DNA of 37,083 bases, taken from positions 1 to 37,083 of the forward strand of contig JAPLXC010000007.1 in NCBI GenBank assembly GCA_026396275.1, in the 5' to 3' direction. Position 1 is the stretch's first letter, and each line of letters starts with the position of its first letter. Position numbers and translations under genes: made by a program. This document shows, in pieces, positions 595 to 34,243 of this stretch. The stretch is from Candidatus Moraniibacteriota bacterium (GTDB lineage Bacteria; Patescibacteriota; Minisyncoccia; Moranbacterales; JAPLXC01). A model generated the notes under the pieces. The model had not been told where the DNA came from. It saw only the letters and a program-made list of their open reading frames with translations, and did no database searches.

Positions 595-1656
<1,062 letters not shown>

Positions 1657-1673
1657 ATTTTCCCTTTTACTAA

Positions 1674-1702
1674 ATTATATAGATTACAGATGCTCAATTC
1701 AA
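1674..1702 (-). promoter_or_regulatory. Sigma-70-type promoter for the HTH/Fn3 gene
   Basis: Minus-strand -35 TTGAAT (1702-1697), 17-base spacer, -10 TATAAT (1679-1674). The predicted start is near 1667, giving a leader of about 74 bases that holds two palindromes. Confidence 0.75.
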
Positions 1703-1740
1703 CAAAAAAAACGCCTTTTTTAGGTTATCCAAAAAGGGCG
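1701..1740 (-). terminator. Rho-independent terminator, orphan
   Basis: A 10-bp stem (1712-1721 with 1731-1740, one G-U pair) with a 9-base loop is followed on the minus strand by a run of T (A run at 1703-1711). gyrB already has its own terminator 240 bases upstream, so this one ends either read-through or an unannotated short transcript from 1742-1983. Confidence 0.6.
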
Positions 1741-1741
1741 C

Positions 1742-1983
1742 TTTTCATGAAAAAACCCTCCGATTTAGCAAATTAGGTCCTTTTTGTCAAAAAGTCCAAA
1801 TAATTCTGTTTTCTAGGCATTTTTATTTTCCTTTTACTTTTTCCGTTTCGGTTTTTCAAGAAAAACGCCATAATTTTCTGTCAAGAGCAATTTTCGCTAA
1901 ACTTGCAATATTTGTCGGACAATTTGCTTTGGTTTTATTGTTTTAACAAAAATAGGGCTTGGAAAATTTTATCATTGGCACAA
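1742..1983 (-). other. Gene-free stretch between two terminators; possible small RNA or micro-ORFs
   Basis: No ordinary gene is present. On the minus strand two tiny frames have ribosome binding sites: a 15-codon frame with AAAGGA upstream, and a 7-codon frame starting at ATG with GGAGG seven bases before it (near 1762-1755), whose codons run into the terminator stem at 1712-1740. This could be a leader-peptide-like or small-RNA unit. No convincing promoter was found, so this is only a candidate. Confidence 0.25.
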
Positions 1984-2019
1984 AAAAATAACTCCGCGTT
2001 GGCCTGCGGAGTTATTTTT
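1984..2019 (-). terminator. gyrB terminator
   Basis: Perfect 12-bp stem (1986-1997 AAATAACTCCGC with 2006-2017) and an 8-base loop, 17 bases after the gyrB stop, followed by T residues in the minus direction. It is symmetrical and could work both ways. Confidence 0.85.
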
Positions 2020-2034
2020 CTTTTTTACATTATT

Positions 2035-4044
<2,010 letters not shown>

Positions 4045-4665: not shown

Positions 4666-4742
4666 TGGCGGACCTGACCGGATTCGAACCGGCGATCTTC
4701 TCCGTGACAGGGAGACGTGTTAGACCACTACACTACAGGTCC
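4666..4742 (-). tRNA. tRNA-Asp(GTC)
   Basis: Complete cloverleaf of 77 bases. Acceptor GGACCTG pairs with CAGGTCC; anticodon stem TCTCC/GGAGA encloses loop CTGTCAC with anticodon GTC; T-arm GCCGG-TTCGAAT-CCGGT. The CCA end is encoded, unlike most tRNAs in this window. It is the last gene of a unit that begins at the promoter at 5091-5119. Confidence 0.95.
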
Positions 4743-4751
4743 ATTATTTTT

Positions 4752-4801
4752 GGTGCGGGGGCGAGGCAGGGAGGCGTGATAGGCCGCTACACTAACGATC
4801 C
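4752..4801 (-). pseudogene. 5' tRNA half (Asp/Gly-like) with CCCCGCACC tag
   Basis: 4767-4801 read on the minus strand resembles the first 35 bases of tRNA-Asp (GGATCGTTAGTGTAGCGG and onward, ending CTCCCTG in the anticodon loop). It then breaks and runs through CCTCGC into CCCCGCACC (4752-4760). There is no 3' half nearby. The next bases could supply a GCC anticodon (Gly), but the tag makes this uncertain. Confidence 0.6.
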
Positions 4802-4808
4802 GCTTTAA

Positions 4809-4914
4809 GCGGGGCAAGCAGGGAATTACTGGTTATTAAAGGGAGACGTGCCTGCCCCGTGAATCCGAGCCCTGCGAGGATTTTTTCGGGGTTAGGCCAC
4901 TACACTACGAGTCC
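4809..4914 (-). pseudogene. 5' tRNA half (Glu-like) interrupted by a hairpin in the D-loop
   Basis: Two tRNA pieces, 4891-4914 (GGACTCGTAGTGTAGTGG, then CCTAAC) and 4838-4850 (CACGTCTCCCTTT), join into a 5' half closely matching the neighbouring tRNA-Asp up to the anticodon loop; CTTT suggests tRNA-Glu(TTC). Between them lies a 40-base insert (4851-4890) with a CCCCG stem ending ACGGGGCAGG. After the second piece the sequence drifts and reaches CTGCTTGCCCCGC (4809-4821). No 3' half is found. Confidence 0.6.
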
Positions 4915-4931
4915 GGAAAATTTTAACCGAG

Positions 4932-5005
4932 TAGCAGGGGTGGGACTCGGACCCACGACCCACGGATTATGATTCCGTTGCTCTAACCAACTGAGCTACC
5001 CTGCC
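4932..5005 (-). tRNA. tRNA-Met(CAT), elongator type
   Basis: 74 bases, CCA not encoded. Acceptor GGCAGGG pairs with CCCTGCT (G-U at the end); D-arm GCTC/GAGC; anticodon stem ACGGA/TCCGT around ATCATAA; T-arm GTGGG-TCCGAGT-CCCAC. Position 55 of the T-loop is C rather than the usual T. A lysidine-type tRNA-Ile(CAT) is the alternative; the arm sequences favour elongator Met. Confidence 0.9.
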
Positions 5006-5013
5006 GCATAATT

Positions 5014-5090
5014 GGTGCGGGGTGAATCCTGTATAAACCAATTGCCTGCCCCGTGAATTCCAAAGGAATTTTACGGGGAGCTACCCTGGC
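5014..5090 (-). pseudogene. 5' tRNA half with D-arm hairpin insert and CCCCGCACC tag
   Basis: GCCAGGGTAGCT (5079-5090) looks like the acceptor and start of the D-arm of a tRNA. A 34-base insert follows (5045-5078): a perfect hairpin CCCCGT..AATTCC/GGAATT..ACGGGG plus CAGG. The tRNA-like sequence then resumes (CAATTGGTTTATACAGG, ATTCA; 5023-5044) and ends at CCCCGCACC (5014-5022). The promoter at 5091-5119 would start transcription at the first bases of this fragment. Confidence 0.6.
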
Positions 5091-5119
5091 ATTTTACAGC
5101 TAAAATTACTATATATCAA
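5091..5119 (-). promoter_or_regulatory. Promoter of the Met-Asp tRNA unit
   Basis: Minus-strand -35 TTGATA (5119-5114), 17-base spacer, -10 TAAAAT (5096-5091). Predicted start near 5084, inside the acceptor strand of the 5' tRNA fragment. Confidence 0.65.
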
Positions 5120-5148
5120 CCCCGCATTAACTTTGCCGATTGTTAATT

Positions 5149-5197
5149 GGCGGCGCTGCGGGCGAATAGCCCGGCCCTATTCGGGCCAAGCGCCGCC
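5149..5197. repeat. GC-rich nested palindrome
   Basis: Outer arms GGCGGCGCT (5149-5157) and AGCGCCGCC (5189-5197) are perfect. An inner pair GGGCGAATAG / CTATTCGGGC surrounds CCCGGCC. It is almost entirely G and C in an AT-rich spacer between two tRNA units, so it could fold as a cruciform or RNA hairpin. Confidence 0.7.
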
Positions 5198-5271
5198 GGA
5201 ATTTAGGACACTGGTATAAAATTAAAACTTGATTATATTAACAAAAGCAAAGTTAGTGGCGGGGTCAACAT

Positions 5272-5292
5272 AAAAATCCCGTCGCTACGGGA
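5272..5292 (-). terminator. Terminator of the tRNA-fMet unit
   Basis: TCCCGT-cgct-ACGGGA (5277-5292) with A residues at 5272-5276, that is a T run in the minus direction. It lies about 76 bases after the tRNA-fMet 3' end. Confidence 0.75.
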
Positions 5293-5337
5293 CTTTCATG
5301 CATTTTTATGGGCGCCAGATTTGCTTGCACTGAGTGA

Positions 5338-5356
5338 GTCCGATATTGCATCGGAC
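5338..5356. repeat. GTCCGAT/ATCGGAC hairpin, copy 1
   Basis: GTCCGAT-attgc-ATCGGAC, 7-bp perfect stem. Related hairpins occur at 26510-26528 and 34152-34170, each within a tRNA locus. Confidence 0.6.
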
Positions 5357-5367
5357 GAGTCGAAGTG

Positions 5368-5441
5368 TTGCGGGAGCAGGATTTGAACCTGCGACCTCGT
5401 GGTTATGAGCCACGCGAGCTGCCAGACTGCTCCATCCCGCT
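5368..5441 (-). tRNA. Initiator tRNA-fMet(CAT)
   Basis: 74 bases, CCA not encoded. Anticodon stem CGTGG/CCACG around CTCATAA; T-arm GCAGG-TTCAAAT-CCTGC; D-arm GGAGCAGTCTGGCAGCTC, all typical of bacterial initiators. The first pair is unpaired as required for formylation, but as A1-A72 instead of the usual C1-A72. Transcribed from the promoter at 5584-5612. Confidence 0.93.
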
Positions 5442-5497
5442 GCGTAAAATTCGCTTCGCTCACCACGCAGCTTAAAGCTGCTAACTATATCACAACA

Positions 5498-5549
5498 CTA
5501 CCAGTCACGTGGCGAAGCTTTACGTGACTCCATCCCGCTGCGTAAAATT
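5498..5549 (-). pseudogene. Duplicate of the tRNA-fMet 5' end with D-arm hairpin
   Basis: The 22 bases at 5528-5549 are an exact copy of 5430-5451, covering the first 12 tRNA bases and ten upstream bases. The copy is then interrupted by a perfect GTCACGT/ACGTGAC hairpin (5504-5528), resumes as CTGGTAG (5498-5504), and diverges. It is upstream of the intact gene in the same transcript. Confidence 0.65.
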
Positions 5550-8219: not shown

Positions 8220-10484
<2,265 letters not shown>

Positions 10485-24190: not shown

Positions 24191-24196
24191 AGCGCG

Positions 24197-24220
24197 CCCC
24201 GACCTTACAGTCGGGGTTTT
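24197..24220 (+). terminator. comF terminator
   Basis: CCCCGAC (24197-24203), loop CTTACA, GTCGGGG (24210-24216), then TTTT. Seven bases after the stop. Downstream to 24338 there is no gene; CCCCGCACC (24248-24256) and GGTGCGTGGG (24309-24318) are the tags seen at other tRNA loci, but no convincing tRNA half lies here. Confidence 0.8.
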
Positions 24221-24338
24221 AGCCCTTTCAGTTTTCGGAGCGCGGAACCCCGCACCGAAAGCTGCCTGAAGGCCATTTATCACACGAGCTGACGATCGTG
24301 GTTTTCTGGTGCGTGGGTAAAGCTTTGATTTAAAAACA

Positions 24339-25044: not shown

Positions 25045-25147
25045 GATTGACCAAAAATTGGCGGAAGGGGTGAGATTCGTCCCGCACCTTTACCTTTTTA
25101 GACTCGTTCTTAATTTGCTATTTAATTCTTCTAACTGGTTTTTGATG

Positions 25148-25213
25148 CGGAAGAGGAGGGATTCGAACCCCCGAGGCCTTTGCAAACCTAACGGTTTTTC
25201 GCGACCCTGCACC
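25148..25213 (-). pseudogene. 3' half of a tRNA-Ser, tag GGTGCAGGG
   Basis: On the minus strand GGTGCAGGG (25213-25205) is followed directly by an anticodon-loop-like TCGCGAAAA, a variable-arm remnant, a good T-arm (GGGGG-TTCGAAT-CCCTC), the acceptor strand CTCTTCC and discriminator G. The 5' half is missing. The loop suggests anticodon CGA. CTCTTCC pairs perfectly with GGAAGAG of the 5' fragments at 25500 and 25557. Confidence 0.65.
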
Positions 25214-25224
25214 AAAAATGCTCG

Positions 25225-25287
25225 CGGAAGCGGGAGGATTCGAACCTCCGGTGCCCTTGCGGACACAACAGTTTTTCTCGACCCCGT
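25225..25287 (-). pseudogene. 3' half of a tRNA-Ser, tag TACGGGG
   Basis: TACGGGG is followed by TCGAGAAAAACTG, a variable arm TGTCC-gcaa-GGGCA, a perfect T-arm (GGAGG-TTCGAAT-CCTCC), acceptor strand CGCTTCC and discriminator G. No 5' half is attached. CGCTTCC fits the acceptor GAAAGCG of the fragment starting at 25605 in six of seven pairs. Confidence 0.65.
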
Positions 25288-25294
25288 AAGAAAG

Positions 25295-25381
25295 CGGAAG
25301 GGGTGAGATTCGAACTCACGGTACCGTTTCCGATACGACAGTTTTCAAGACTGTTCCCTTAAACCACTCGGGCACCCTTCC
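25295..25381 (-). tRNA. tRNA-Ser(TGA)
   Basis: 87 bases, complete, CCA not encoded. Acceptor GGAAGGG/CCCTTCC, anticodon stem ACAGT/ACTGT around CTTGAAA, long variable arm, T-arm GTGAG-TTCGAAT-CTCAC, discriminator G. It is flanked on its 5' side by four 5' tRNA fragments and on its 3' side by two 3' halves. Confidence 0.95.
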
Positions 25382-25388
25382 GCTTTTC

Positions 25389-25429
25389 TACGGGGCAAGC
25401 TGGTGCCTTACCATTCGGCGCAACCCTCC
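25389..25429 (-). pseudogene. 5' tRNA half ending CTTG, tag CCCCGTA
   Basis: GGAGGGTTGCGCCGAATGGT (from 25429) continues through a D-arm and anticodon 5' strand to CACCAGCTTG, then CCCCGTA (25395-25389). About 34 tRNA-like bases, broken in the anticodon loop. The isotype cannot be fixed; the acceptor does not match either 3' half well. Confidence 0.5.
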
Positions 25430-25436
25430 ATTTTTT

Positions 25437-25500
25437 GGTGCGGGGCAAGCCGCCTCATTCCTGCCTGCCGGCAGGTAGGCAACCACTCTGGCACTCTTCC
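25437..25500 (-). pseudogene. 5' tRNA-Ser half with D-loop palindrome, tag CCCCGCACC
   Basis: GGAAGAGTGCCAGAGTGGTTG (25500-25480, 21 bases) is interrupted by a near-perfect palindrome with core CCTGCCGGCAGG (25460-25479). It resumes as AATGAGGCGGCTTG and ends at CCCCGCACC (25445-25437). Its acceptor GGAAGAG and its tag both fit the 3' half at 25148-25213. Confidence 0.6.
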
Positions 25501-25510
25501 TTACTTAAAA

Positions 25511-25557
25511 GGTGCGGGATTCAAGACTGTTCCCTTAAACCACTCGGGCACTCTTCC
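25511..25557 (-). pseudogene. 5' tRNA-Ser half ending in the anticodon loop, tag CCCGCACC
   Basis: 38 bases from 25557 to 25520 match intact tRNA-Ser(TGA) except for one acceptor base (GGAAGAG for GGAAGGG), through the anticodon TGA and one further A. The sequence then changes abruptly to TCCCGCACC. Confidence 0.7.
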
Positions 25558-25562
25558 GCTCT

Positions 25563-25605
25563 ATACGGGACAAGCAGGTACGTTAAACCACTCCGGCACG
25601 CTTTC
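25563..25605 (-). pseudogene. 5' tRNA-Ser half, tag TCCCGTA
   Basis: GAAAGCGTGCCGGAGTGG (from 25605) continues TTTAACGTACCTGCTTG and then TCCCGTA. It sits at the predicted transcription start of this locus. The acceptor strand fits the 3' half at 25225-25287. Confidence 0.55.
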
Positions 25606-26329: not shown

Positions 26330-26335
26330 TTTTTG

Positions 26336-26409
26336 CGTCCTCAAGAGGATTCGAACCTCCGGCCTTCGGCTCCGCAAGCCGACGCTCTATCCAGCTGAGC
26401 TATGAGGAC
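26336..26409 (-). tRNA. tRNA-Arg(GCG)
   Basis: 74 bases, complete, CCA not encoded. Acceptor GTCCTCA/TGAGGAC, anticodon stem TCGGC/GCCGA around TTGCGGA, T-arm GGAGG-TTCGAAT-CCTCT. The anticodon is GCG, whereas bacteria usually read CGU and CGC with ACG edited to inosine. Confidence 0.92.
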
Positions 26410-26476: not shown

Positions 26477-26557
26477 GGTGCGGGGCACACGCTCTACCTG
26501 CCCCGTAGTTTCCGATGTCGCATCGGAATACTTCGGGGTCCACTGAGCTACAAGCGC
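26477..26557 (-). pseudogene. 5' tRNA half with D-loop hairpin, tag CCCCGCACC
   Basis: GCGCTTGTAGCTCAGTGGA (26557-26539) and TAGAGCGTGTG (26496-26486) join into a perfect tRNA 5' half with complete D-arm. A 42-base insert separates them (26497-26538): a CCCCG hairpin whose centre TTCCGATG/CATCGGAA resembles 5338-5356, ending ACGGGGCAGG. CCCCGCACC follows at 26485-26477. Acceptor partner is at 26302-26308. Confidence 0.65.
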
Positions 26558-27282: not shown

Positions 27283-29451
27283 ATGATTACTCTTGAAACT
27301 CCTCTCAAAAATCTCCCCCGCATCGGTCCGAAATATGTTAAAAACCTGAAAAAACTCGGCATCGCGACTGTCGGAGATCTGCTTTTCCATTTTCCTTTCC
27401 GCTATGATGACTACTCCAAAATCTTGCCGGTTTCTTCTTCTTCCCGGGGCGATACAGTAACCGTTGAGGGAGAAATCATTGAAAGCCGGACTACCCGCAC
27501 CTGGAAACGAAAAATGTTTTTGACTGAAATCCTGCTCAAAGATGATTCCGGAACTATCCGGGCTTTGTGGTTCAATCAGCCGTATCTGGCCGAAAACTTG
27601 ACTGAAGGAAAAAAGATCAGGATCAGCGGAAAAATAACAGGCGACGCCAGCGGACTTTACTTTTCCAATCCGGCTTGGGAACTGGCTTCGCGCGCTCCTA
27701 CTAACACCGGTCGGCTGGTGCCGGTCTATCCGGAAACTGAAGGCGTAACCTCGCGCTGGCTCCGCTGGCAAATCCAATTTCTCCTAAAGTTCAACTTTAG
27801 GATAAGCGATCCGGTACCGGAAAAAATTCTCAAGAAATTAAATCTTCCGGGAACAGACAAGGCCATAAATTACATCCATTTTCCCGACACACTTGACCAC
27901 GCTCTCGTCGCCCAAAAAAGATTCGCTTTCGAAGAAATGTTTTTGGTACAGCTTAAGTCCCTGCAAATTCGTTCCAGCTGGCAAAAAGAGCAGGCGGTAA
28001 AAATCAAATTTAATGAAAAGCTGATTAAGAATTTTGTAAAAAAACTTCCTTTCAAACTCACCGACGCCCAGCGAAAATCAGCTTTTGAAATCCTGAAAGA
28101 CCTCGAAAAATCCCGGCCAATGAACCGGCTGCTTAACGGCGACGTGGGATCGGGCAAGACAGTCGTAGCCGCCGTTGCTTCTTTGCAGGCGATTAACAAG
28201 GGATATCAAGTCGCTATTATGGCACCGACCGAGGTTTTGGCTAGGCAGCATTTTGATAGTTTTATTAAGTTATTCTCCAGTTACAAAATAAATATTGGAC
28301 TTCTTACAAATTCATATAAGATGATAACTTGTCATCCCGAACTTGTTTCGGGATCTAATAATAAGATGCTGAAACACCTGCCCGCATCGCTATGCGAAGC
28401 ATTGCAGGCGGGAGTTCAGCATGATACCAGAACAAATCTCCTCAAAAAAATCCAATCCAGCCAAATTAATCTTGTCATAGGCACTCACGCCCTTATTCAA
28501 GAAGATATCCGTTTCAAAAATCTGGCTTTAATTATTGTTGATGAACAGCACCGCTTCGGCGTCACCCAGCGGGCTTATTTGCAACAGAAATCTTCTGAAA
28601 TAAACGACGGGCTTCCGGAAAAAATCCCTCACTTCTTAACTATGACCGCCACTCCCATACCCCGCACTCTGGCTCTGGCTTTTTTTGGAAATTTAGATAT
28701 CTCAATCCTGGACGAAATGCCCGCCGAGCGCAAAAAAATAATCACCGGGATTGTCAATCCTGTTGAAAGAAATAAAACTTATGAATTCATTCGTGCTGAA
28801 ATTAAAAAAGGCCGCCAGTGTTTTATTATCCTGCCTTTAGTGGAAGAGTCAGAAATACTAACTGAAGTGAAAGCGGCTGTTCAGGAATATGAGCGGCTGT
28901 CCCGAGAAATTTTTTCTGATCTTAAGCTCGGCCTTATTCACGGCCGGCTAAAGGCCGATGAAAAGGAAAAGGTGATGCGGGAGTTTGCCGGGAAAAAAAT
29001 TGACATCTTGGTTGCCACTCCGGTTGTGGAAGTAGGAATTGACATTCCCAACGCCACCGCGATGATTATTGAGGACGCTGACCGCTTTGGATTATCCCAG
29101 CTCCACCAATTCAGGGGAAGAATCGGCCGGGGCAAATACCAGTCATACTGCTTTTTATTCACCAGCAGCAATTCTTCAAATGTCAGAGCAAGATTGAAGG
29201 CGCTGGTTGAAAGTGAAGACGGCTTTAAGATAGCCGAGAAAGATTTGGAACTTCGCGGTCCGGGAGAATTTTTCGGCACCCGCCAGTCGGGCCTTCCTGA
29301 CATCGCCATGGAAAATCTGGCTAACGTTCGCCTTATCCAAATCGCCCGCGAAGAAGCGCAGGAATTGCTTAAATCTGATCCGCCGTTAAAAAATTATCCC
29401 TACCTTAAAAAAGCTTTGCAAAAATTTGAGCAAGAAATTCATTTGGAATGA
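27283..29451 (+). CDS. recG: ATP-dependent DNA helicase RecG with palindrome-derived insertion
   Basis: Remodels stalled forks and Holliday junctions. 722 residues, slightly long. N-terminal wedge OB domain (about 55-135), helicase motifs G286-D-V-G-S-G-K-T293, M-A-P-T-E-V-L-A, D420-E-Q-H423, T-A-T-P-I-P-R-T, and the motif V region V-V-E-V-G-I-D-I-P-N with Q-L-H-Q-F-R-G-R-I-G-R-G. All are intact. Residues 347-384, between motifs Ia and II, are extra and read H-P-E-L-V-S-G-S and N-K-M-L-K then V-Q-H-D, the peptides made by a palindromic repeat. A second small palindrome encodes L-L-K-F-N-F-R-I (27782-27802). Start ATG at 27283, no Shine-Dalgarno. Confidence 0.95.
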   Translation: MITLETPLKNLPRIGPKYVKNLKKLGIATVGDLLFHFPFRYDDYSKILPVSSSSRGDTVTVEGEIIESRTTRTWKRKMFLTEILLKDDSGTIRALWFNQPYLAENLTEGKKIRISGKITGDASGLYFSNPAWELASRAPTNTGRLVPVYPETEGVTSRWLRWQIQFLLKFNFRISDPVPEKILKKLNLPGTDKAINYIHFPDTLDHALVAQKRFAFEEMFLVQLKSLQIRSSWQKEQAVKIKFNEKLIKNFVKKLPFKLTDAQRKSAFEILKDLEKSRPMNRLLNGDVGSGKTVVAAVASLQAINKGYQVAIMAPTEVLARQHFDSFIKLFSSYKINIGLLTNSYKMITCHPELVSGSNNKMLKHLPASLCEALQAGVQHDTRTNLLKKIQSSQINLVIGTHALIQEDIRFKNLALIIVDEQHRFGVTQRAYLQQKSSEINDGLPEKIPHFLTMTATPIPRTLALAFFGNLDISILDEMPAERKKIITGIVNPVERNKTYEFIRAEIKKGRQCFIILPLVEESEILTEVKAAVQEYERLSREIFSDLKLGLIHGRLKADEKEKVMREFAGKKIDILVATPVVEVGIDIPNATAMIIEDADRFGLSQLHQFRGRIGRGKYQSYCFLFTSSNSSNVRARLKALVESEDGFKIAEKDLELRGPGEFFGTRQSGLPDIAMENLANVRLIQIAREEAQELLKSDPPLKNYPYLKKALQKFEQEIHLE
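28321..28434. repeat. Nested palindromic insertion in recG
   Basis: ATCCCGAA (28334-28341) pairs with TTCGGGAT (28347-28354), and ATGCTGAA (28366-28373) with TTCAGCAT (28415-28422). Inside the second pair, replacing its usual short loop, sits another palindrome with CCTGCCCGC and GCAGGCGGG ends (28377-28412). The frame stays open through all three. Confidence 0.85.
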
Positions 29452-33945: not shown

Positions 33946-34029
33946 TTGAAAATGTAACGTACAATTTATAAATTTTAAAAAATAAACCGCACGTTATATA
34001 AATAAAAATTACAAGATTAATTAATGAAG

Positions 34030-34113
34030 TGGGGATGGGGAGAGTTGAACTCCCACGATCTTGCGATCATAGCGCTCTGAACGCTACGTGTCTGCCAGTT
34101 CCACCACATCCCC
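34030..34113 (-). tRNA. tRNA-Leu(CAG)
   Basis: 84 bases, complete, CCA not encoded. Acceptor GGGGATG/CATCCCC, anticodon stem TAGCG/CGCTA around TTCAGAG, variable arm TGATC-gcaa-GATCG, T-arm GGGAG-TTCAACT-CTCCC. Confidence 0.95.
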
Positions 34114-34151
34114 TTTTTTGATATTTTTTAAGCTAGCGCGCTTGCTCCGTC

Positions 34152-34170
34152 GTCCGATATGACATCGGAC
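34152..34170. repeat. GTCCGAT/ATCGGAC hairpin, copy 2
   Basis: GTCCGAT-atgac-ATCGGAC with flanking CCGT/ACGG pairs. Same arms as 5338-5356. It lies between the tRNA-Leu fragment and the intact tRNA-Leu. Confidence 0.65.
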
Positions 34171-34173
34171 TTT

Positions 34174-34243
34174 ACGGGGTATACCAACTTGTCCCGCACC
34201 ATCCCGCTAAGCGGGATTGGTGCGTGGATTCCGCCACACGCCC
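34174..34243 (-). pseudogene. 5' tRNA-Leu fragment with D-loop hairpin, tag CCCCGTA
   Basis: GGGCGTGTGGCGGAAT (34243-34228) looks like the acceptor and D-stem of a tRNA-Leu. A 35-base insert (34193-34227) forms a strong hairpin CGCACC-a-ATCCCGC/GCGGGATGGTGCG. D-loop-like ACAAGTTGGTATA follows, then CCCCGTAAA. No 3' half is present. Confidence 0.55.

Follow-up and report, generated by a model that had tools for sequence, protein, structure and literature searches.

The window analyzed here is a stretch of 37,083 nucleotides (contig JAPLXC010000007.1, positions 1 to 37,083) from a Candidatus Moraniibacteriota bacterium, in which ARAGORN identified seven intact tRNA genes. Direct reading confirmed what a sequence-only reading had noticed earlier, namely that broken 5' parts of tRNA genes lie upstream of intact ones at four of the five tRNA loci, affecting the genes for Asp, Met, fMet, Ser(TGA), Arg, and Leu. 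Regarding tRNA-Asp, the intact, innermost copy (4666-4742; minus strand, as for all features below unless stated otherwise) is preceded in the sense of transcription by an exact match to the short tag CCCCGCACC (4752-4760), by the 5' part of an older, broken tRNA-Asp that stops in the anticodon loop (4762-4801), and by a second, outer broken 5' part of tRNA-Asp (4838-4917) with a hairpin insertion at about 4854-4891; both broken parts were read directly and recovered by a fragment search of the flanks. The intact elongator tRNA-Met (4931-5005) is preceded by another exact match to CCCCGCACC (5014-5022) and, by reading, by the 5' part of an older tRNA-Met, which extends to the anticodon loop and contains a palindrome at about 5049-5078 (5023-5090). 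Reading also revealed a short broken 5' part with a palindrome in the D-loop (5498-5540; palindrome, 5504-5528) upstream of the intact, initiator-like tRNA-Met (CAT; 5367-5441), the 5' part of a broken tRNA-Arg-like gene with a D-loop palindrome (26486-26557; palindrome, 26500-26539) behind an exact match to CCCCGCACC (26477-26485) upstream of tRNA-Arg (26335-26409), and a 5' part of tRNA-Leu with two hairpin insertions (34131-34243) upstream of the intact gene (34029-34113). A further short sequence, CCTGCCCCGT, occurs at 4851, 5045, and 26497. The Asp, Met, Arg, and Leu loci have 5' parts without 3' parts, and a reading in terms of gene replacement therefore requires, in these cases, either a deletion or the replacement of the 5' part only. 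No endonuclease gene adjoins the tRNA genes in the window.

The tRNA-Ser(TGA) locus is more elaborate, with at least three layers having both 5' and 3' parts around the intact gene at the center of the nest (25294-25381). Its downstream 3' fragments (25061-25280) were absent from the sequence-only reading. The innermost broken layer consists of a 5' part (25396-25429), which lies beyond the left arm ccccgta (25389-25395), and a 3' part (25224-25280) that follows the right arm tacggggt (25281-25288). In the next layer, the left arm is an exact CCCCGCACC (25437-25445), the 5' part contains the palindrome cctgccggcagg (25446-25500), and the 3' part (25147-25203) follows the right arm ggtgcagggt (25204-25213). 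The outer layer has the left arm tcccgcacc (25511-25519) and a 5' part that ends at the TGA anticodon (25521-25557); the 3' part of the outermost paired layer (25061-25079) follows the right arm ggtgcggga (25080-25088), and the oldest tRNA-Ser-like 5' part is located further out (25581-25605). All of these parts and the arms other than CCCCGCACC were read directly, and the flank search also found the parts at 25147-25203, 25224-25280, 25446-25500, and 25521-25557.

The tag itself occurs five times in the window against an expectation of 0.17, a number that none of 100 shuffles reached, and its exact copies are located where they had been reported, at 4752, 5014, 25437, and 26477 on the minus strand and at 24248 on the plus strand. 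The last of these, beside tRNA-Ser(GCT), is an exact copy, but no tRNA fragment adjoins it, and the repeat to which it belongs (24195-24320, plus strand, by reading) is a different, unrelated one, with copies at two other loci in the genome (L053 and L064). We then considered the whole genome (810,038 bases in 22 contigs, with 47 tRNAs), which has 25 exact copies of the tag. Fifteen are within 200 bp of a tRNA, a zone that covers at most 2.8% of the genome (binomial probability 1e-17), and the other 10 are at least 1.4 kb away from any tRNA, some in elements of approximately 100 nt that have the same arms and no tRNA and some in the unrelated repeat. All nine tags upstream of tRNAs read CCCCGCACC in the tRNA sense, and five of the six downstream read GGTGCGGGG; the sixth sits between two Ser tRNAs. 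The tag is thus the left arm of an inverted repeat (CCCCGCACC...GGTGCGGGG). On the downstream side of the intact tRNA, the right arm of this repeat precedes the 3' fragments, and the orientation of the tag relative to the tRNA results from this geometry. The proposal that the tag marks tRNA 5' fragments in one direction was consequently abandoned: the single orientation holds for the left arm and not downstream, and the association with tRNA genes leaves out 10 of the 25 copies, so that tags away from tRNA genes, which had been named beforehand as evidence against the proposal, were in part found. That tag and fragments belong together, and that random decay is insufficient to explain them, was upheld.

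In a conservative search of the 250-nt flanks of all 47 tRNAs, 16 5' fragments were found upstream (12 tRNAs) and 19 3' fragments downstream (14 tRNAs), all in the sense orientation; the opposite placement was found for seven downstream 5' and three upstream 3' fragments, antisense fragments were not found, and none of the 248 background tiles contained a 5' fragment. This search missed the window fragments of Met, fMet, Arg, and Leu because inserted palindromes break them up, and these were read by eye. The layout of an element is an outer 5' half, an arm, an intact tRNA, an arm, and an outer 3' half, in up to several layers. At the tRNA-Val(TAC) locus (L043), for example, a 5' half beginning GGATCCT and extending to the anticodon loop is followed in the tRNA sense by ttcaccccgcacc, the intact tRNA-Val, ggtgcggggcaa, and a 3' half ending AGGATCC; the two halves pair at 7/7 acceptor bases and thus represent one older tRNA. 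Orphan halves pair equally well across the intact tRNA at the loci for Ala (two layers), Val(GAC), and Ile. Considering this nested architecture, we interpret the fragments, with fairly high confidence, as what is left of tRNA genes that were invaded time and again by small mobile elements, each bringing a complete tRNA as a replacement.

Similar elements are present elsewhere in the class. The two-arm pattern CCCGCACC-N82..112-GGTGCGGG was detected in 48 of 383 genomes of the class, compared with two for the reversed pattern as a control. Among the 31 arm elements read in 30 loci, 14 have an intact tRNA between their arms, and in each of these cases parts of a different tRNA lie on the flanks. 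The insertion sites, as read by eye, are in the anticodon loop, or in the T-loop at three loci (L247, L248, and L259). A search for a right arm followed by an orphan T-arm yielded hits in five of the 383 genomes (control, 0), one of which was false, being a chance match inside an intact tRNA-Leu (L083 in G290). Regarding the identity of the nested genes, we compared 27 distinct arm-tRNA-arm elements of 11 isotypes, 10 from this genome and 17 from others, of which only L085 came from the search requiring an orphan T-arm. The outer flanks best matched the isotype of the inner tRNA in 25 of the 27, the exceptions being L239 and L240, whereas 100,000 shuffles of the isotype labels gave a mean of 3.4 and a maximum of 13. 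Since this genome mostly has one tRNA gene per anticodon, only a same-isotype replacement should survive, with which this result is in agreement.

The remaining 17 of the 31 arm elements have no tRNA. The arms are accordingly not specific to tRNAs, and the view that they mark tRNA fragments only was rejected, also in consideration of the 10 tags elsewhere. The tRNA-less elements of approximately 100 nt with the same arms are spread over the class (L249, L251, L253, L254, L256-L258, L262, and L264, and L044, L051, and L066 in this genome), and many have a common core such as CGGAATCGCCTGCGGCTTAG or GGCGAAGCC; a search of eight such loci against Rfam gave weak matches only, far below the gathering scores, none of which was credible. 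Two proteins encoded in the window contain odd inserted peptides, KEVRPLSTK...GRTSIDLD in a putative DNA ligase-like protein (8220-10472, minus strand) and GEVRPPSTK...[19 protein letters not shown]...LPASLCEALQAG in a putative RecG-like protein (27283-29451, plus strand), and these are likely to be repeats that entered coding genes in frame.

One clean pair of an empty and a filled site was found, in two genomes of the same genus. G391 has an intact, uninterrupted tRNA-Ala(CGC), reading ...CCGCATT CGCA TTGCGG..., and the same tRNA is split in G359, in which ...CCGCATT is followed by TTCACCCCAGCACC, another tRNA-Ala(CGC), GGTGCGGGGCAAG, and TTGCGG.... The sequence CGCA, namely, the anticodon and position 37, is replaced by the arm-tRNA-Ala-arm element; four bases are replaced and none is duplicated. 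The upstream flanks of the two genomes align at 77.5% over 360 columns and 77.9% over 226. Judging from the two sequences, the event in G359 is an insertion because a precise excision restoring the anticodon is implausible. The Ala types are nested in reverse in the genome of the window, in which the GGGGA type is broken and the GGGCT type is intact. At the adjacent tRNA-Ser(CGA), the roles of the two genomes are swapped: the gene is uninterrupted in G359, and in G391 it is split into a 5' part, followed by a LAGLIDADG ORF (PF14528, 7e-13), a tcccgcacc arm, and a new tRNA-Ser. In another comparison, of G391 with G394 at the GIY-YIG locus of tRNA-Asn, the ORF-less locus of G394 retains a leader that resembles the 3' end of the ORF, and this sequence suggests that the locus may be a deletion.

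The arm elements may instead be MITEs moved by some transposase, with the capture of a tRNA being secondary and selection retaining the same-isotype insertions, an alternative that preserves the replacement of tRNA genes and that we regard as possible, but rather unlikely. These elements have the terminal inverted repeats, small size (about 100-120 bp), and lack of an ORF expected of MITEs, the same arms occur with and without a tRNA, and copies of approximately 100 nt without a tRNA lie far from tRNA genes. However, the absence of a target duplication in the clean pair does not fit, and all 14 tRNA-bearing elements of the 30 loci are inside a broken tRNA even though insertion elsewhere would be harmless. 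Moreover, the arm bases beyond the ninth vary between elements and agree within them: in a comparison of 26 of the 27 elements, bases 10-13 match at 87 of 101 positions within an element versus 1308 of 2525 between elements. Such a difference is not expected of fixed transposon ends.

Besides the ORF-less CCCCGCACC...GGTGCGGGG elements, there is a second grade, in which a small GIY-YIG or LAGLIDADG gene separates the intact tRNA from the broken 5' part; the ORF and the intact tRNA often have bases in common. The GIY-YIG domain (PF01541) was detected at eight places in this genome (3e-17 and 9.6e-14 for two of the proteins), and five of the eight genes are directly upstream of a tRNA, namely Val(GAC), Glu(CTC), Gln(CTG), Pro(GGG), and Trp. 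All five ORFs stop at a TAG, which lies in the tRNA (positions 21, 13, 8, and 9) or has its last base on the first base of the tRNA. This stop codon and the place of the ORF behind a broken tRNA 5' part suggest, as far as the arrangement of the sequence indicates, that the ORF is read from a tRNA promoter. We extended the comparison to 110 GIY-YIG loci, comprising 80 named relatives, mostly from Parcubacteria-type records, and 30 of the order (at least one locus is seemingly in both sets, as L102 and L163, and L095 is from this genome). A tRNA on the same strand lies within 150 bp at 52 of the 110 loci, and one on the opposite strand at none. The same-strand tRNA is located from -60 to +150 of the stop codon at 37 loci, with the ORF overlapping it at 14, and within 150 bp upstream at 23. 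As the arrangement is also present in a complete chromosome (CP066689.1, L174), it is not caused by assembly errors. None of the GIY-YIG relatives in nine viral contigs lies beside a tRNA.

When these loci were examined for broken copies of the adjoining tRNA, the match was better than every control at only 12 of the 37 loci with a downstream tRNA and at four of the 23 with an upstream tRNA; on the far side of the ORF, it was in the top tenth of the other-isotype controls at 23 of the 37. The side after the tRNA, intended as a control, was positive at five of the 37, some of which are true 3' halves. Palindromes were present in the 260 nt before the ORF at 34 of the 37 loci versus 11 of 35 control stretches, and in the loci read they are mostly inside the broken tRNA copy. 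A palindrome common to both sides of the element was found at one of the 37 loci by a strict rule, and those of L151 are nearly identical by eye. Several other arrangements were noted among these loci. In L135, L145, and L187, the intact tRNA comes first and the GIY-YIG gene follows at a distance of about 90-110 bp, an interval that contains serial hairpins of the ACGCTNAGCGT type. L171 and L201 have a mirror form, in which the GIY-YIG start codon directly follows an intact tRNA-Phe; the gene of L171 is in turn followed by a broken 3' copy, the anticodon region of which contains a palindrome. In L182, a record named Omnitrophota, the palindrome tgccccgcacc...ggtgcggggca lies between tRNA-Gln and the GIY-YIG gene (about 2960-2990), and the same arms are thus present outside Patescibacteria. 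An ORF of approximately 210 aa that lies immediately before tRNA-Tyr and extends into it (L065, about 1530-2165, minus strand) was also considered as a homing enzyme and rejected because Pfam and NCBIfam gave nothing convincing.

The enrichment of palindromes before the endonuclease ORFs is also what might be seen if tRNA genes were duplicated in tandem and decayed in the ordinary way, with palindromic repeats entering the dead copies later. This explanation could still hold for single 5' parts such as those of the Asp, Met, Arg, and Leu loci in the window; however, it does not account for an intact tRNA between complementary halves of another, being contradicted by the paired loci, nor for the empty/filled pair and the sense-only, side-specific placement of the fragments, and we consider it improbable as a general explanation. 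The anticodon loop is the usual site of tRNA introns, and many of the insertions are in this loop; the outer halves might on this basis be exons, with the arms pairing into a stem and a second tRNA happening to sit inside. This is very improbable since the outer tRNA in G359 lacks the anticodon and base 37, so that the rejoined exons would have no anticodon, while the outer halves often have palindromes in the D-loop and have lost arms, and the eight tRNA-less loci had no credible match in Rfam. Integrative elements that target tRNA genes leave partial tRNA copies, and scars of such elements or of phages using tRNA genes as attachment sites would be expected to resemble the fragments, but we give this explanation the least credence because the inserts are either about 100-120 bp, too short for an integrase, or contain one small endonuclease ORF, the tRNA inside them is a complete gene and in many cases a divergent one, and on reading the loci no integrase was seen, with only the endonuclease ORF between the halves.

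We return to the invasion of tRNA genes by elements carrying a replacement, for which the nested architecture, the isotype match, the empty/filled pair, and the close association of such loci with endonuclease genes are direct observations. In the mechanism proposed, the simplest one to connect these findings, an element would enter a resident tRNA gene at one of its loops, in most cases that of the anticodon and sometimes the T- or D-loop, and thereby split the gene into 5' and 3' halves that are both dead, upon which the element's own intact tRNA of the same isotype would take over the function and rescue the cell; a later element may then split the carried tRNA, giving nested layers of dead genes around a living one. 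Entry would be initiated by an endonuclease that cuts the resident gene in the loop, and repair would copy the element in, namely, by homing. The elements are, on this basis, probably selfish ones that break an essential tRNA gene, supply the replacement, and spread by homing; the insertion was seen once, and we infer cleavage and homing. The ORF-less elements may derive from the endonuclease elements or use such endonucleases in trans; that they could be derivatives is suggested by the sequence of the G391 tRNA-Ser locus, which has an ORF, an arm, and a tRNA together. A more specific form of this proposal, which we put forward tentatively and with a little less than even confidence, is that these are natural home-and-rescue elements: the homing endonuclease would break the resident tRNA gene, the element would supply a cut-resistant tRNA of the same isotype, and the host would depend on it thereafter, with the nested loci being a fossil record of such takeovers and the arm-tRNA-arm elements without an ORF a non-autonomous form.

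The literature searched, from which subscription journals were mostly absent, gave no description of elements that carry a tRNA, split a resident one, and take its place, and the comparisons made here draw on partial texts of the sources cited. By analogy, the nearest principle described in these texts appears to be that of the mORFs of fungal mitochondria, reported in atp6, atp9, cox2, and nad3 of Glomus and in atp6 of Allomyces (PMC3630166). In both cases an insert supplies a substitute for the part of the host gene that it breaks: the mORF brings an endonuclease gene (LAGLIDADG, or GIY-YIG in atp9) and a foreign replacement end into an essential gene, the native end of which stays behind the insert (PMC3630166). 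The mORFs differ in that they affect protein genes of organelles and replace the C-terminal part, whereas bacterial tRNA genes are affected here and a whole tRNA gene is supplied as a complete replacement; in addition, the portion of PMC3630166 available does not describe nested layers or ORF-less arm elements for mORFs. SegB of phage T4 is a free-standing GIY-YIG homing endonuclease, the gene of which also lies among tRNA genes and drives the inheritance and amplification of the tRNA region; however, it belongs to a tRNA cluster of a phage, with tRNA-Arg and tRNA-Ile as its neighbors, and no split tRNA or substitute is described in the portions available (PMC2988022, PMC13096335). Group I introns with homing endonucleases are likewise mobile insertions in RNA genes and occur in tRNA and rRNA genes, including those of CPR bacteria, but they are removed from the RNA and leave the host gene alive, whereas the host tRNA is dead and replaced here (PMC8172020). 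Synthetic home-and-rescue drives follow the same logic, in that they disrupt an essential gene and bring a functional version of it; according to the text available, they are engineered, based on Cas9, and operate in Drosophila, unlike the natural, bacterial elements proposed here, for which cutting is an inferred step (PMC7968924).

If this explanation is correct, tRNA genes of reduced bacterial genomes, which are essential and supposedly stable, would have been repeatedly replaced by selfish DNA carrying tRNAs, and parts of the decoding machinery would be exchanged horizontally, isotype by isotype. It would provide a natural counterpart to engineered home-and-rescue drives and account for the presence, in these genomes, of small GIY-YIG genes next to tRNAs. 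The tRNA fragments, which are usually ignored, would then represent a history that may be read layer by layer.
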